DNA of 64,000 bases from Candidatus Allochristensenella caecavium (GCA_904397865.1 CAJFOS010000011.1:1-64000); one strand, 5' to 3'; shown: positions 26,800-58,172, numbered from the stretch's first letter. The notes: generated by a model from the sequence alone, not told the origin. A program made the numbers and translations.

Positions 26800-26888
<89 letters not shown>

Positions 26889-51218: not shown

Positions 51219-51908
51219 TCATTCGGTCCGGATTCCGTATTTTTGTACAATGCGCGTCAGTTTTTTGCGCCATGGCAGCCAAATCAGTCCCAAAAAAACC
51301 ACCGTCGCCGCCGCATGCGCCGTATCAAACGCCAGGCCTGCCCCATATGCGGCCAATGCCGTTTGCAGCGTCAGCGGCCGGACAAATCCCAAAATGAACC
51401 AGCTGTTCAATATGCAGCCGTATCCATAGGCCGCCAGCGCCCCTAGACACAGCACGGCCGCGCGGCTTTGGCACAGCTTTGTTTTGCCCAGTCCGCCCGC
51501 AATATATCCCATCAATCCGCACGCATACATCTGCCAGGGCGTCCAGGCTCCCTGGCCGAAGAAAAAATTGGACGCCAGCACACTCAGGGTTCCCACCAGC
51601 AACCCGCTCTGTCTGCCAAAACACAGCCCCGCCACAATCACAATCGCCAACAACGGCTTGATATTCGGAAACGGCGCAAACAACATCCGTCCCACCACCG
51701 CCGTGACGATAAGCACCACCAGCGGCATCAGGTCGCGCGCGCGCGGTTTACGCCGTTCCAACCGGACAAAAAACGGCAGCAATGCAAACAACGCCACGCC
51801 CGTGCTGAACAAAGCAGTCTGTTCCCAGCCCCCATAGGCGCACAGCGCCATGCATACCGGCACGCCCGCCAACACCGCAATTTCCAGCCACCTATGCATC
51901 CTGTTCAT
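51219..51908 (-). CDS. ECF transporter S component, probable corrinoid
   Basis: A 229-aa membrane protein with about six helices, last gene of the B12-riboswitch operon. It fits the ECF S-component type: FPNIKPLLAIVIVAGLCFGRQSG and GTLSVLASNFFFGQGAWTPWQM and an A-rich final helix. It lacks the MHIMEG start of cobalt CbiM proteins. Its ATG overlaps the stop of the ATPase gene as ATGA, so translation is coupled. The riboswitch and the T-A-A-S gene set make a corrinoid or B12 precursor the likely ligand, but specificity is not proven by sequence. Confidence 0.82.
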   Translation of the reverse strand: MNRMHRWLEIAVLAGVPVCMALCAYGGWEQTALFSTGVALFALLPFFVRLERRKPRARDLMPLVVLIVTAVVGRMLFAPFPNIKPLLAIVIVAGLCFGRQSGLLVGTLSVLASNFFFGQGAWTPWQMYACGLMGYIAGGLGKTKLCQSRAAVLCLGALAAYGYGCILNSWFILGFVRPLTLQTALAAYGAGLAFDTAHAAATVVFLGLIWLPWRKKLTRIVQKYGIRTE

Positions 51909-53509
51909 TGCGCTTCCCCCACGCAATCCTCCACCGTCATACAATCCGGCCAAACGGCGCGGGTGATTCGGTGCACCGCGGTGGTATAAAATTGGTTGCC
52001 GGCAAAAAAGGTGCGCGCCGGTTCGGTGCACAGCACCTCCCCGTCAAACATCATCGAACACCAATCGGCCACGCTTGCGGCAAAATCCACATCGTGCGTC
52101 ACCAGCACAACTGTGTGTCCTGCCCGTGCCAGGGCGCGCAGCTGCTGGGCAATCTCACGCTTGCCATATGCGTCCATCCCCTTGGTCGGCTCGTCCAGCA
52201 GCCAGATATCCGGCGCGAGCAGGCACAGTTTGCCGAACGCCGCGCGCTGCATCTCCCCGCCGCTGAGGTCATAGGGATGGCGGTCCAGCAGCCCTTGGAG
52301 TCCCCACTGTCGCGCCTGGGCCTGGATGTCCGCTTCTCCAGCGCCGCTCAGGCGCGCCGTCTCCTGCCAATCCTCCGCCACGCTGTCACCGACGAACATC
52401 GTCTTGGGGTCCTGGTTCATCATCGCCACACGCCCGCGCACCTGCACCTTTCCATGCAGCGGGCGGCAAACCTGCGCCAATATGCGCAAGGCCGTGCTCT
52501 TACCGCTTCCGTTTCCTCCAACAACAGCATGTACCTGGCCCGGATAGGCGCACAACGAAAAGCCCCTGAGCACCATGGGGCCCTTTTTTTCATACGAAAA
52601 CCATACGTCCCGTGCGGACAGCGCCGGCTTGACCGACGCAGGCAGCGCCGCTTGGCCGCCGGGATGCGGATGCAGGCGGTCGGAATGCGTTTGTAGCCAG
52701 CGCTGGCCCTGCTGCACACTGATGGGCCAGGGGCCTTGCATCTGTACGCGCAGGGCGAGCTGCACGGCTGCAGGCAGCGCCGAAACAAAGGCCGAAGGGC
52801 CCTGATGATGCATCCACTGCAGCCAGGGTTGTACCGCCCCGTCAAATGCAAGCGTTCCCTGCTGCATATACCAGACTTGCGTCGCCATGGGCAGTACGTC
52901 CTCCAGCCGATGTTCACTCATCACAATTGTCGTTCCCAGTTCAGCACGAATGCGGCCCAGCATCTGCAAAAATGTCTGCGCCGCGACCGGGTCGAGCTGG
53001 CTGGTCGGTTCATCCAGCAACAGAATGTCCGGCCGCATCACCATCACCGATGCCAAATTCAGCATCTGCTTCTGGCCGCCGGAGAGCGCATGGACGGGCT
53101 GTAAAAACCAAGGGCCGATGCCAAAAAAATGCGCCATTTCCGCCACCCGCCGCCGAATCTCAGCAGAAGGGACGCCCAGGTTTTCCAGCCCAAACGCCAA
53201 TTCCTGCCAAACGGTATCCGTCACCAGCTGATTTTCCGGGTCCTGCATCACAAAGCCGACGCACCGCGCCGCCTGCTGTGCGTCCATCTGCTCCTGGTCC
53301 TGTCCCAGGATGGCAATTCGGCCCTGTCGGTTTCCGTGCGGCGCAATCTCGCGCTTTATCTGGCGCAGCAGGGTGGTTTTACCGCTGCCACTTGTACCGC
53401 ACACAACCACAAACGCCCCTTGTTCCACCACCGCCGATACGCCATCGAGCACCGGTTTTTCCTGCCCCGGGTAGGCAAACGTTATCCCCTGAAGCCGAAT
53501 CGCTTCCAC
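51905..53509 (-). CDS. Fused double ABC ATPase of ECF transporter (EcfA-EcfA)
   Basis: A protein of about 534 aa with two complete ABC domains. The first (about 1-260) has GTSGSGKTT, the signature ALSGGQKQMLNLA and LLLDEPTSQLDP; the second (about 300-520) has GGNGSGKST, DLSGGEMQRAAFG and IWLLDEPTKGMD. Fused EcfA pairs serve dedicated ECF transporters. I choose GTG at 53509, which puts AGGAGG seven bases upstream; the ATG at 53515 lies one base from that sequence. The start overlaps the EcfT gene by 28 bases. Confidence 0.88.
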   Translation of the reverse strand: MEAIRLQGITFAYPGQEKPVLDGVSAVVEQGAFVVVCGTSGSGKTTLLRQIKREIAPHGNRQGRIAILGQDQEQMDAQQAARCVGFVMQDPENQLVTDTVWQELAFGLENLGVPSAEIRRRVAEMAHFFGIGPWFLQPVHALSGGQKQMLNLASVMVMRPDILLLDEPTSQLDPVAAQTFLQMLGRIRAELGTTIVMSEHRLEDVLPMATQVWYMQQGTLAFDGAVQPWLQWMHHQGPSAFVSALPAAVQLALRVQMQGPWPISVQQGQRWLQTHSDRLHPHPGGQAALPASVKPALSARDVWFSYEKKGPMVLRGFSLCAYPGQVHAVVGGNGSGKSTALRILAQVCRPLHGKVQVRGRVAMMNQDPKTMFVGDSVAEDWQETARLSGAGEADIQAQARQWGLQGLLDRHPYDLSGGEMQRAAFGKLCLLAPDIWLLDEPTKGMDAYGKREIAQQLRALARAGHTVVLVTHDVDFAASVADWCSMMFDGEVLCTEPARTFFAGNQFYTTAVHRITRAVWPDCMTVEDCVGEAQ

Positions 53510-54363
53510 GACCATTCCTCCTTTGCCTGCAAAAGCAGCGGCATACTCAGATATGCCGCATAGGCCGCATAAAACAGCGGTGAAATATCCGCCGCCTGAA
53601 AAAACGGATAAAAAGCCGCTGTCCGCATGCCCAAGCATATGCCCGCCACGCTCGTCCCCGCCAGCAGTACCAGTATGCACAGCAGCACGCCGTCCCGCAT
53701 GCGGAAATGAAAAGGGGAAAACGCCGTCCGTTTCACCCCTGCGCCATATCCGCGGCTTCTCATCGCGTCTGCCGTATCCATGCTGTTTTCCAGGCTCAGC
53801 GCCATCAACACCGTTGCCGTCCGCACCCCGCGCCGTACCCGTTCCTTTCCCTTGGCCTGCGCGATGCCCAATCCCATCGCCTGCTGCGCCTGGGCAATCG
53901 CCTGCGCTTTATGCCGCGCCTGCGGAATCATCCGCATCACGATGGACATCAGCAGCGCCATCGTTGGAAACACGCGGCCACACACGTGCAGGAACCGCTC
54001 CGTTGTCATCAACTGATTCCAACATATACACCATAGCCATACGCTCATCAGCATCACCGCCGTACACCCCCCATACAACAGCGATTCCAGCGTAATGGGA
54101 TTATCCATGCACATAAACAGCACCGTCAATCCCCTGTGGTTGAACAGAGGGTTGACCAGCCATACCAGAAGACCCAACAGGCCCACGTGCCGCATAGCGC
54201 GCCCGTAGGCCTGCCAGTTCGTCAAATACACCGCATATGCACTGGCGCATACAAAGGAAAGAACGACAAAAGCCGGCTGCGCGGTCAGCATCGCGCAGAC
54301 CATCGCAACCGTCAAATATACAAAGATAACCCATGGATGATAGCTTTCAAAGGCGTTCCGCAT
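53482..54363 (-). CDS. ECF transporter T component
   Basis: A 293-aa membrane protein of the EcfT (CbiQ-like) family that couples the ATPase pair to the S component. About five helices are seen. The coupling segment reads SLENSMDTADAMRSRGYGAG, with the conserved Arg-Gly pattern that fits the ATPase groove. It begins one base after the DUF4430 lipoprotein stop and overlaps the ATPase gene, so the proteins are made together. Confidence 0.88.
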   Translation of the reverse strand: MRNAFESYHPWVIFVYLTVAMVCAMLTAQPAFVVLSFVCASAYAVYLTNWQAYGRAMRHVGLLGLLVWLVNPLFNHRGLTVLFMCMDNPITLESLLYGGCTAVMLMSVWLWCICWNQLMTTERFLHVCGRVFPTMALLMSIVMRMIPQARHKAQAIAQAQQAMGLGIAQAKGKERVRRGVRTATVLMALSLENSMDTADAMRSRGYGAGVKRTAFSPFHFRMRDGVLLCILVLLAGTSVAGICLGMRTAAFYPFFQAADISPLFYAAYAAYLSMPLLLQAKEEWSWKRFGFRG

Positions 54364-54364
54364 G

Positions 54365-55048
54365 CTATTTTACCGAAGCCCCGATATCCTTGCCCGCATC
54401 GCAGGTATACCGCCATTGAACGACGTCGCCCTGCTGCACGGTCTGCGCGCTGGCGCTTTTCTGCACAGCCCTTCCGTTCAGCAGATACATCCATCCGCTA
54501 CCTGCACCCGCATCGCCCTCGCCCAGCGACTGGATACCCGTTACGTATACATTTTTCCCGCTGCCGGATTTGCTCACGACCAGCCCGCGTTTCTTGGCCG
54601 CCGCCTGCAGCGCGTCATACACCGTGCCGCCCGCAGGGATTTCCACCGTCATCTGCGCTGCAATCACGCCATTGGGCGCGATTTTCAGCGCAACCGCATT
54701 GCCTTTTTCCACCGCCGTCTTGCAGTCAATTCCCACCGTACACGTCACCGTCTGTGCCTGCGGTGCCTGTGTGGCAGCAGGCTGGGCGGGCGCCTTTGTC
54801 GTTTGGACCGGTTGCGTCGCTGACGGCTTCTGCGTCGTGTTCCCCGTCTGCTGGGGGCGGGGCGTCTGTGTGCTGGTCGCCGCCGGCTGAACCGCCTCCG
54901 TTTGTGCAGGCGCGGGGGATTCTGCCGTCGGCTGGCTCTGGGCCGGCGGAGCGGAAACAGCCGGCTGCTCCTGCGCCGCGGGCGTACAACCCGCCATGCA
55001 TAGACATGCAACCAATACAGCCGCCCAAGCGCGTATCCATCGTTTCAT
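54365..55048 (-). CDS. DUF4430 lipoprotein, candidate cobalamin-binding
   Basis: A 227-aa exported lipoprotein. Lipobox MAGC with Cys21; a Pro/Thr/Gln-rich linker of about 75 residues, likely a wall-spanning arm; then a DUF4430 domain (about 100-225) with GWMYLLNGRAVQKSA and QQGDVVQWRYTCD, the W-x-Y-x-x-N-G and G-D-x-V-x-W-x-Y hallmarks. DUF4430 is related to the C-terminal domain of transcobalamin/intrinsic factor. Position between the anchored DUF4430-propeller protein and EcfT suggests it hands ligand to the transporter; this is inference. Confidence 0.85.
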   Translation of the reverse strand: MKRWIRAWAAVLVACLCMAGCTPAAQEQPAVSAPPAQSQPTAESPAPAQTEAVQPAATSTQTPRPQQTGNTTQKPSATQPVQTTKAPAQPAATQAPQAQTVTCTVGIDCKTAVEKGNAVALKIAPNGVIAAQMTVEIPAGGTVYDALQAAAKKRGLVVSKSGSGKNVYVTGIQSLGEGDAGAGSGWMYLLNGRAVQKSASAQTVQQGDVVQWRYTCDAGKDIGASVK

Positions 55049-55068
55049 CTTCGCGTGCCTCCCCTTTT

Positions 55069-55101
55069 ACAACAGGGAACCGGCCTGTTCCCGGTTCCCT
55101 G
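55069..55101 (-). promoter_or_regulatory. Intra-operon hairpin after anchored DUF4430 gene
   Basis: CAGGGAACCGG/CCGGTTCCCTG around a six-to-seven-base loop, without a good T run. It may protect the 3' end of the surface-protein message. Confidence 0.4.
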
Positions 55102-55112
55102 CTTGTTCTGTC

Positions 55113-57821
55113 TTAATGCTGTTGCTCTCTGCGCAGGCAGAGCCAGCAAACGCCAGCGCCCATTGCAAGCAGCATCCATGCCATCGGCACAACATCCCTC
55201 TCGCCTGTTTTCGGAATATCAGGCGTATGGCCGCCATCGTCCGTACCGGACGGAGCGCTTCCTTTCAAGGCAAACAGCAAGCCGCTGTCGTTGGTGAAAT
55301 AAAGGGTGCCGTCCGCTCCAGCCATCAGGCTCGCCGCACAGTAATTCTGGTCGGCCTGCGCGGGCGTATACAAAGTCTGCACGGCAATGTCCGCCCCTGT
55401 ATCCGTCAACACCTGTACGCGGCTGGTACCGTCGTTGAGCGTAACATACAACCGTACCACGCCTCCCAATACGCTCGCCAACGGGGAGGACTGGCTGTAT
55501 CCCCCCACCGAGACGCTCTGCAGCAGCGCGAGCGTTTGCTTGTCGCGCACCTCCAGCACGCTTTCCTCTCCATAAGCGCCGGAAACGAGCACATACAGCC
55601 GTTCGCCTACAACGACGGGGGTCGCTGTTGTTCCCAATCCGTTTTGCGTCTGTCCCTGGGCTTTGATGCGCAGCGTGCCATCCGCCTGTACCGCCACAGC
55701 ATACAGATGCCCTGTCTGTGTCGCTACATAAGCGCATTGCCCTTCCGCGTCATAAACCACGCCGCTTCGCACTCCGCCATCCAGCGCCACGGCAGACAGT
55801 ATCCGGTCGTCCTTGCGCGCATGGGAAATCAGCATACCGTCGTCCCCGGCAAACAGCACTGCATCCTGTGCAATCGCGCCGCCGCTCCAGTAATAGCCCG
55901 TGCTTTCGCCCGTTCCCCGGTGCGTCCAAACCGGAGCCTTGCTTTCCGTCGCCAGCGTCGGGTCTGTATCCGTCACATCATAGGCCGCGTACAACCCGTT
56001 GGTCTTGGTGGCGGATATATATTCCACCAGCCCCGTATACAGCATCCCATCATGGTACACCAGCGGTGCGCTGGCTTGATAGGTATCCTGAACGCTTTCC
56101 GTCACCCACAGCGATTCCAGCGTCTTGGCGTCCAGCGCCTGCACACGTCCTTGGTCAATCGGTACAAACAGCATTCCGTCTCCATAGGCGGCATAGGAAA
56201 AATATCCTACCGAACCGGCCAGCTTGGCCTGTGCGCATACCTGCCCGGCCGCATCCAGCACCAACAGCGTGTCGTTCACGCTGATATATACCTTTTCGTC
56301 AATCAAAAGCGGAGCCCCGATGGACGCCCATTGCAATTCACCCGCCAAGTTCTGCTTCCACTGCAGGGCCGTATGCGCGGCATCCTGCGGCGTCTGCGCC
56401 GCCGTTACGCCCTGATTGGGCCCACGGAAGGCGTCCCATTCACTTTCCAGCTCGCTCAGCGCTTGTGCAGGCGTGTGAAAAATCAGCGTGTATACCTTCT
56501 CCTCCGCGCCGTCGGTCACCCGTGCCGTCACCACCCGTGGGTTGCCGCCCTGATTGAGCACGTAGGTATCGCCTTGCTTGCCCGTTGCGCCCGTCACCTG
56601 CAACGCGCCGCCTGCCACCTTCTGCGTAAAGGCGATTTCCACCTCTGCGTCACGTGCCACTTTGACCGTATACGTCAGCGTATCCGGGTCAAATGCCAGC
56701 TCACCCTGGTTGACCTGTATATCGGTAATCGCGTTCGCTTCCGCCTTGACAGTAACAGAAAAGGTTTTTGTCTGTTCCTGTGTTCCGCGGCGAATTGTCG
56801 CCGTCAGTTCCACCGTAGCATCCGGCTGACCCAGAGCGGGCCGCGTCACCGTGCCGTCATTGGCCACCACCGCCGGGTTGCTGGATACCCAATCAATATG
56901 CGTCTTTCCGCTCGCACCGATGCGCGGCAGGTCTATATTCGCTGTATATGCCTGCTGCAGGGAAAGCGCCTGCTTATCCGCCTGCACCAGCGTTTCGTCC
57001 GCGCTGTGGTCGGCTTCCTTAACCGTCACCTGTGCATACGGGCGGGAAATATCCAGTGTCTGCGGCGTATAAGCCCGCACCGCCGTCAGCGGATATACCC
57101 CCGGCGTGTCAAAGGTCAGTACCGCCTGGCCCTTGGCATCGGTCACTGCGGTCTGCGTCACCGTGCTTCCGACAGCTCCGTCGCCGTCCGCGCCCGCTTG
57201 TACCGTCGCGCCGCCGAGCACCGCTGGTTGCTGGGCAAAATTATCGTATCCATTCAGCTGCACCAACAACGGGTCGCCTGCCTCCACGATATAAGCGTCG
57301 CGGTCGAAATCAGCCGTATACGAAGGCACACTCGGATAACTGCCGCCCCATACCCCGTAAATGACAATCGCATCGCCGGCTTGCACCGGGTATTCCGCTA
57401 TCCCGTAACCCCAACCCGTTTCGGGGTTAACCGGCGCCGCCCCATTGACGGAGAACATCCAATAAACGCCCTCTGCATTGCTTTCGCTTCCATTGCTGCC
57501 CAAAATGGCGCTCAGCCACCCGCCCGGCGCGGTGATATAACCCGTCATATCCTCCGCCGTAGCTCCCATGGTCTGTTCCATGTAAGCGGCTAATACGTGT
57601 AACGGGGTTACATACCCCGGGTCCGTCACGTCGGTCAGGCCATAGTCGGCAAGCGTCTTAGCCTGTACATCCATTGTGACGGGCTGCTGCAGCGTGCTCT
57701 CCGCAAATTCGATGCGCAGCGTCACTTGCTTGTCCTGCGGCGCGGCCCAGGCTGTCGGCATCATGCCCAGTACCAACAGCGCCGCAAGCAGCGTACTGAT
57801 AATTCGTCTTCTCTGTTTCAT
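55113..57821 (-). CDS. Wall-anchored DUF4430-Ig-beta-propeller protein
   Basis: A 902-aa exported protein directly under the cobalamin riboswitch. Signal peptide 1-26; DUF4430 domain about 33-158 (YWMFSVNGAAP, QAGDAIVIYGVWGG); Ig-like region 170-270; atrophied bacterial Ig domain 272-360; cadherin-like sandwich 363-450; PQQ-type beta-propeller about 485-855, with repeated blades (VYISVNDTLLVLDAAGQ, LFVPIDQGRVQALDAKT, AYVATQTGHLYAVAV, LYFTNDSGLLFALKG); sorting signal IPKTGE 869-874, helix and basic tail. Riboswitch control suggests corrinoid capture at the wall, either by the DUF4430 domain or the propeller. Similar domain mixes were not known to me as characterised. Confidence 0.9.
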   Translation of the reverse strand: MKQRRRIISTLLAALLVLGMMPTAWAAPQDKQVTLRIEFAESTLQQPVTMDVQAKTLADYGLTDVTDPGYVTPLHVLAAYMEQTMGATAEDMTGYITAPGGWLSAILGSNGSESNAEGVYWMFSVNGAAPVNPETGWGYGIAEYPVQAGDAIVIYGVWGGSYPSVPSYTADFDRDAYIVEAGDPLLVQLNGYDNFAQQPAVLGGATVQAGADGDGAVGSTVTQTAVTDAKGQAVLTFDTPGVYPLTAVRAYTPQTLDISRPYAQVTVKEADHSADETLVQADKQALSLQQAYTANIDLPRIGASGKTHIDWVSSNPAVVANDGTVTRPALGQPDATVELTATIRRGTQEQTKTFSVTVKAEANAITDIQVNQGELAFDPDTLTYTVKVARDAEVEIAFTQKVAGGALQVTGATGKQGDTYVLNQGGNPRVVTARVTDGAEEKVYTLIFHTPAQALSELESEWDAFRGPNQGVTAAQTPQDAAHTALQWKQNLAGELQWASIGAPLLIDEKVYISVNDTLLVLDAAGQVCAQAKLAGSVGYFSYAAYGDGMLFVPIDQGRVQALDAKTLESLWVTESVQDTYQASAPLVYHDGMLYTGLVEYISATKTNGLYAAYDVTDTDPTLATESKAPVWTHRGTGESTGYYWSGGAIAQDAVLFAGDDGMLISHARKDDRILSAVALDGGVRSGVVYDAEGQCAYVATQTGHLYAVAVQADGTLRIKAQGQTQNGLGTTATPVVVGERLYVLVSGAYGEESVLEVRDKQTLALLQSVSVGGYSQSSPLASVLGGVVRLYVTLNDGTSRVQVLTDTGADIAVQTLYTPAQADQNYCAASLMAGADGTLYFTNDSGLLFALKGSAPSGTDDGGHTPDIPKTGERDVVPMAWMLLAMGAGVCWLCLRREQQH

Positions 57822-57837
57822 GTCTTCCCCTCCGAAA

Positions 57838-57870
57838 AATCAAAAAACTCCGGCTTCTCTCAGCCGGAGC
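57838..57870 (-). terminator. Terminator of cobalamin riboswitch expression platform
   Basis: CTCCGGCT/AGCCGGAG stem followed on the minus strand by TTTTTTG, between the aptamer and the start of the anchored gene. Ligand binding would favour this terminator. Confidence 0.85.
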
Positions 57871-57916
57871 GCGCAGCAAATAAACCGCGTCCTTCCCGCC
57901 GAAAGAGCCTTTTCTC

Positions 57917-58087
57917 GCCAACAGGCAGGTCTTCCGGCTTGGGGTTCATGCGGAAGAAACCTCCTTCCCAATGCATGTGCATCAGTGGATGGCGTTGGCC
58001 CGGTTCCCTCCCTCACCCTTTACGGCAGCGGGGGCTGCGTCTGCTTCGCACAGACTTCCCTATTCTCCATTTTCATGGCACCTGTCG
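57917..58087 (-). promoter_or_regulatory. Cobalamin riboswitch aptamer
   Basis: On the minus strand the conserved elements follow in order: GACAGGTGCC, AATAGGGAA, GTGCGAA, GCCCCCGCTGCCGTAA, CCACTG, GGGAAGG and the final AAGCCGGAAGACCTGCCTG. This is the adenosylcobalamin-type (B12 element) class. It precedes the terminator at 57838-57870 and controls the operon 57821-51219. Confidence 0.95.
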
Positions 58088-58172
58088 GTATGGGACGTTC
58101 ATCGTCCTTTTGTATTCTATCACACTCTTCTTTGCCTGCGGAAAAAACTTTCGTGCATTTGCCCTGTTTGCA

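Follow-up and report, generated by a model that had tools for sequence, protein, structure and literature searches.

A cobalamin riboswitch heads an operon of two DUF4430 exoproteins and a CbrT-like ECF transporter, a probable corrinoid capture-and-import system

Introduction

Little is known of how most Gram-positive bacteria catch vitamin B12 on the outer side of the membrane, and a survey of gut genomes published in 2019 treated transporters for B12 and its precursors as an open problem in many species (PMC6593275). This question is raised by a five-gene operon located at positions 51219-58087 of a 64,000-nucleotide stretch (hereafter the window) from Candidatus Allochristensenella caecavium, where genes for two DUF4430 exoproteins precede those of an ECF transporter. 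Do these genes together capture corrinoids at the cell surface and import them?

The idea of B12 capture by such proteins is not new. Burroughs et al. 2007 (PMC1796856) described Gram-positive transcobalamin-like proteins that carry signal peptides and wall anchors and are fused to toroid, Ig or beta-propeller modules. Paired paralogues were reported there in operons with CbiO- and CbiQ-like genes, and from these neighbourhoods the authors predicted B12 scavenging; they also proposed a transfer to animals. Our search of the literature, which did not extend to subscription journals, returned neither an experimental follow-up of that prediction in bacteria nor any binding or transport measurement for a bacterial DUF4430 protein; of six papers that mention DUF4430, none is devoted to a bacterial one, judging by titles and abstracts.

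Results

Riboswitch and Operon Layout

A first-pass annotation of the window had placed a cobalamin riboswitch ahead of genes for an anchored DUF4430-propeller protein, a DUF4430 lipoprotein, EcfT, a fused EcfA-EcfA ATPase and an S component, with tight spacing and coupled gene ends, and all of this was borne out. The RF00174 aptamer was detected by cmscan at 57907-58100 on the minus strand as a full-model match (108.4 bits, E 3.2e-26), and no other RF00174 match occurs in the host assembly of 1.61 Mb. The five genes lie on that same strand, in the order P0001 (55113-57821), P0002 (54365-55048), ecfT (P0003, 53482-54363), the fused ecfA-ecfA gene (P0004, 51905-53515) and the S-component gene (P0005, 51219-51908). 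P0001 and P0002 are separated by 64 nt and P0002 and ecfT by 1 nt, while the ecfT and ecfA-ecfA genes overlap by about 30 nt and the latter is joined to the S-component gene by an ATGA overlap. A terminator scan found a terminator-like site at 58199-58179 that separates an upstream GDSL-hydrolase gene from the riboswitch, so that the operon looks like a separate transcription unit.

The leader is more stable than its own shuffles (z -3.8). Downstream of the aptamer and ahead of the start codon, the same scan located a hairpin that resembles an intrinsic terminator and is followed by a U tract (57870-57847, minus strand; 9 pairs, tail TTTTTGATTT). This hairpin also forms when the leader is folded to minimum energy, and it is likely the expression platform of an OFF switch acting through transcription termination. 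Aptamer and expression platform thus stand together at the head of the operon and on its strand, as in a cobalamin riboswitch regulon. Scarcity of the ligand, probably AdoCbl as with most RF00174 riboswitches, would leave the terminator unformed and allow the operon to be transcribed.

The Two DUF4430 Proteins

P0002 (227 aa) consists of a lipobox-like MAGC, a long low-complexity linker of Pro, Ala, Thr and Gln and a C-terminal DUF4430 domain (window 54368-54757; Pfam E 2e-15). Genome-wide, DUF4430 domains were found only in this protein and in P0001. An AlphaFold2 model of the P0002 domain, built with 60 related domains as input, reached a pLDDT of 95.5. When it was compared with the PDB by Foldseek, the top 14 matches were all transcobalamin or haptocorrin, and 17 of the 19 matches at E<=1e-3 were transcobalamin, haptocorrin or intrinsic factor (E 1e-6 to transcobalamin), in agreement with the known resemblance of DUF4430 to the C-terminal domain of transcobalamin and intrinsic factor. 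In the model, a helix (46-57) is followed by strands 61-64 and 71-75, giving a beta-grasp whose helix leads into an inserted hairpin; such a post-helix hairpin marks the transcobalamin-like SLBB clade according to Burroughs et al. 2007 (PMC1796856). Searches of DUF4430 sequences against the PDB, with the single protein and with profiles, gave no significant match, the best match of the DUF4430 profile among 177,635 PDB sequences being the transcobalamin-2 beta domain at a non-significant E of 0.34. It is the comparison of the P0002 model with solved structures, and not sequence search, that settles the transcobalamin-beta fold of this domain. Since the isolated beta domain of human transcobalamin has been crystallised with both cyanocobalamin and cobinamide (PMC5599065), it is plausible by analogy that a lone DUF4430 domain binds corrinoids.

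The remaining two of the 19 matches both belong to one uncharacterised protein from Ruminococcus gnavus (RUMGNA_00854, PDB 3U7Z), of which two chains were matched. It is labelled 'putative metal binding protein' and is otherwise accompanied in the Foldseek list by B12 carriers only. By its likeness to the P0002 model, 3U7Z may be a corrinoid binder whose structure has already been solved.

P0001 (902 aa) was analyzed by Pfam, the genome-wide DUF4430 search, AlphaFold2, Foldseek and a motif scan. It is composed of a signal peptide, a DUF4430 domain (about residues 27-160), an aBig_2 domain, that is, an atrophied Ig domain (279-360), a cadherin-like domain (366-446) and a propeller (about 470-855). 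Its DUF4430 domain scored 23.4 bits in the whole-protein Pfam scan, marginally under the cut-off of 23.8, and 27.1 bits in the genome-wide search, over that cut-off; the N-terminal region was of low confidence in the full-length AlphaFold2 model and yielded no usable domain. The propeller was modelled with a pLDDT of about 60-93, mostly above 75, and matched BamB with a Foldseek E of 3e-17. The C-terminus carries IPKTGE (IPKTG at 869-873) followed by a hydrophobic segment and then a basic tail, a sorting-signal-like layout that suggests sortase-type wall anchoring and agrees with the description of this protein as anchored. No sortase was found in the window by motif search.

Conservation in Related Loci

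Of 297 genomes from the order to which the host belongs, 51 contain relatives of P0005. When GTDB genomes were scanned with an alignment, at least 593 relatives were obtained; the 80 retained come mostly from Bacillota and Coriobacteriia. Counts were made over 88 related loci in which the sequence ahead of the S-component gene extends for at least 6 kb. EcfT was found in 86 and fused EcfA in 87 of them, and a same-strand DUF4430 gene in 78, in most loci immediately before ecfT. The gene order is kept across Bacillota and Coriobacteriia. A cobalamin riboswitch was detected in at least 46 of the 88, and all 52 matches to a riboswitch model of our own have the same orientation as the operon. No riboswitch match was obtained for about half of the related loci; many of these belong to GC-rich Coriobacteriia, for which the search may be insensitive.

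In two loci, L134 (10659-12974) and L137 (11950-19948), a second riboswitch precedes a separate DUF4430/toroid unit apart from the ECF genes, which ties the surface proteins to B12 independently of the transporter. Four loci (L040, L102, L115 and L132) have a tandem pair of cobalamin riboswitches upstream of the operon, and in another a riboswitch of the AdoCbl-II type (RF01689 and not RF00174; L066:4092-4168) lies upstream of a CbrT operon.

These counts bear on the strongest alternative to a capture-and-import system, namely that the ECF transporter imports corrinoids alone and that the DUF4430 proteins, while B12-regulated, have another role, such as holding corrinoids or hiding them from competitors, wall adhesion, or binding of host proteins that bear B12. 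A capture protein is not needed by ECF transporters, ECF-CbrT of Lactobacillus among them (PMC5997447), so that a relay is not required; moreover, 10 of the 88 loci have the transporter without a detected DUF4430 gene, and the Ig-like, cadherin-like and propeller modules of P0001 are common in adhesins. Against this, DUF4430 stands immediately before EcfT in most loci, its fold is that of transcobalamin, and forms anchored to the membrane through a flexible linker suit delivery, and we consider import by the transporter alone improbable.

Toroid and Propeller Partners

Where a second surface protein was recognised, it contained an alpha/alpha toroid (squalene-cyclase-like) in 43 loci and a BamB-like propeller in 17. 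The toroids are either fused to DUF4430 or encoded by separate neighbouring genes. Both modules occurred together in only one of 87 loci (P about 4e-5 against chance expectation, relatedness ignored), and on the S-component tree the state changed at least four times by strongly supported branches and seven times by parsimony. The BamB-like propeller thus replaces the toroid repeatedly and almost exclusively, at the same position of the operon. In the operon of the window, no gene matched the toroid family in Pfam, and the partner is the BamB-like propeller.

In animal transcobalamin, haptocorrin and intrinsic factor, a beta-grasp domain with the same extra, corrinoid-contacting hairpin is fused to an alpha/alpha toroid, which forms the other half of the clamp, whereas the present operon has a beta-propeller and no toroid. 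An alignment of the bacterial toroids matched squalene-hopene cyclases in the PDB and not transcobalamin, so that their homology to the animal alpha domain is not established by sequence. From the mutual exclusion and the several exchanges we infer that the propeller might be a functional, non-homologous replacement for the toroid half of the clamp, in which case the corrinoid would sit between the DUF4430 domain and the propeller; we put this forward tentatively, as possible rather than probable. We met no prior description of the toroid/propeller exchange or of a B12 site between DUF4430 and a propeller.

B12-Dependent Enzymes of the Host

Among the proteins encoded in the genome are a MetH-like one, NrdJ as the class II ribonucleotide reductase, a PF01923 adenosyltransferase and B12 radical-SAM proteins. 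Neither CobS nor CobA/BtuR was detected in the assembly, which is 92.7% complete, so that such absences are provisional and no proof. B12-dependent enzymes in a genome lacking a detectable CobS fit a B12 salvager.

The nrdJ gene (728 bits) contains one in-frame TGA, where a conserved cysteine would be expected (L165:3121-3123, G000:C3; G-TGA-K-G-V-T-I-Y-R-D-G), a point against the capture-and-import reading. Selenocysteine was considered and rejected: the sole match above the cut-off of the Rfam tRNA-Sec model, just over it at window 26800-26888 on the plus strand, is called tRNA-Ser(TGA) by ARAGORN, and the sequence after the TGA forms no hairpin of unusual stability. The codon may reflect an error of assembly, a broken gene or a missing tRNA-Sec. 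The tRNA match itself advises caution with automatic tRNA-Sec calls.

Heme or iron uptake by the operon was likewise rejected, as the sole Peripla_BP_2/FecCD system of the genome lies elsewhere. This cluster (G000:C13:52586-56223; L160:1087-4726) consists of a sulfite-reductase-like gene beside genes for an IsdE-like binding protein, a FecCD permease and an ATPase, and looks like a heme or iron uptake system.

The ECF Transporter and Its Substrate

EcfT matches the CbiQ family (PF02361, E 1e-7) and carries an MRSRGYG coupling-type motif. The fused EcfA-EcfA ATPase has two nucleotide-binding domains, recognised as two ABC_tran stretches and by TIGR04520/TIGR04521, and the motif scan found Walker A, signature and Q-loop motifs, two of each; the EcfT and the two ABC ATPase domains of a CbrT-type transporter are thus present, with catalytic motifs in both EcfA halves. 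P0005 gave weak matches to the ECF S families in Pfam, and its only convincing sequence match in the PDB was 6FNP_A (phmmer E 1.3e-8). With a profile of 28 P0005 relatives, 6FNP_A was matched at E 5.4e-20 and the next S component, 4HZU_S, at E 1e-4. P0005 is therefore a CbrT-like S component, probably for cobalamin. The structure 6FNP is that of ECF-CbrT of Lactobacillus delbrueckii, which is published as transporting both cobalamin and cobinamide and binding them in the nanomolar range (PMC5997447).

Cobinamide is bound both by CbrT (PMC5997447) and by the transcobalamin beta domain (PMC5599065), and many genomes with several riboswitches have related S components. The substrate could accordingly be a corrinoid precursor or variant, such as cobinamide or other cobamides, and not cobalamin itself. 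As CobS was not found, completion of cobinamide by the usual route would be impossible in this genome, and we judge a precursor as substrate to be slightly less probable still than a transporter acting alone. It is very improbable that another vitamin or a tetrapyrrole is transported and the riboswitch pairing is incidental, given that, although the S components are low in mutual identity and the Pfam matches of P0005 are to the riboflavin and general ECF S families, CbrT is its best PDB relative by a wide margin and dozens of related loci have a riboswitch in the orientation of the operon.

Discussion

The riboswitch, the S component nearest to CbrT, a DUF4430 domain of transcobalamin-beta fold, the conserved gene order and the B12-dependent enzymes in a genome without a detected CobS, all established computationally, support the earlier reading of corrinoid capture and import, and we hold it highly probable that the operon, under repression by B12, serves a Gram-positive cell for corrinoid salvage. 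We infer that either DUF4430 protein may bind corrinoids and that these would be handed over from wall to membrane to transporter. P0001 would be secreted and attached to the wall through its sortase-type signal, and its N-terminal DUF4430 domain, perhaps together with the propeller, would catch corrinoids. P0002, on a long flexible membrane tether, would receive or catch the corrinoid beside the membrane with its transcobalamin-beta-like domain and offer it to the CbrT-like S component. This would topple with EcfT and the fused EcfA pair, ATP hydrolysis releasing the corrinoid into the cytoplasm, where it would be used by NrdJ, the MetH-like methionine synthase and the B12 radical-SAM proteins.

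Lactobacillus CbrT uses a shared ECF module, whereas the present operon itself encodes EcfT, a fused EcfA pair, two DUF4430 exoproteins and a riboswitch. The two systems have in common a homologous S component and ATP-driven import of the ECF type (PMC5997447, 6FNP). The operon shares with the SLBB systems of PMC1796856 secreted transcobalamin-beta-like domains, two paralogues per operon, a CbiO-like ATPase and CbiQ-like genes; the passages considered here name no S component, and a riboswitch is absent from the text. New here are the relation of the S component to CbrT, the link to the riboswitch with its counts, and the alternation of toroid and propeller, and the 2007 prediction of B12 scavenging is now much firmer.

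A likeness to the Btu surface systems of Bacteroides (BtuB, BtuG, BtuH) had also been proposed, and it holds for the logic only, that is, B12-regulated surface capture feeding a membrane importer. The Bacteroides systems belong to the outer membrane, are driven by TonB and are built from other families; the TonB-dependent BtuB and the BtuG and BtuH families were absent from the Pfam matches of the operon.

We judge the evidence sufficient for choosing constructs and testing them. If the capture-and-import reading is true, the operon fills part of the gap in what is known of B12 catching outside the membrane of Gram-positive bacteria, as a widespread arrangement in which an ECF transporter is fed by a tethered capture protein, and it would bear on the proposal that animal transcobalamin was acquired from such bacteria.
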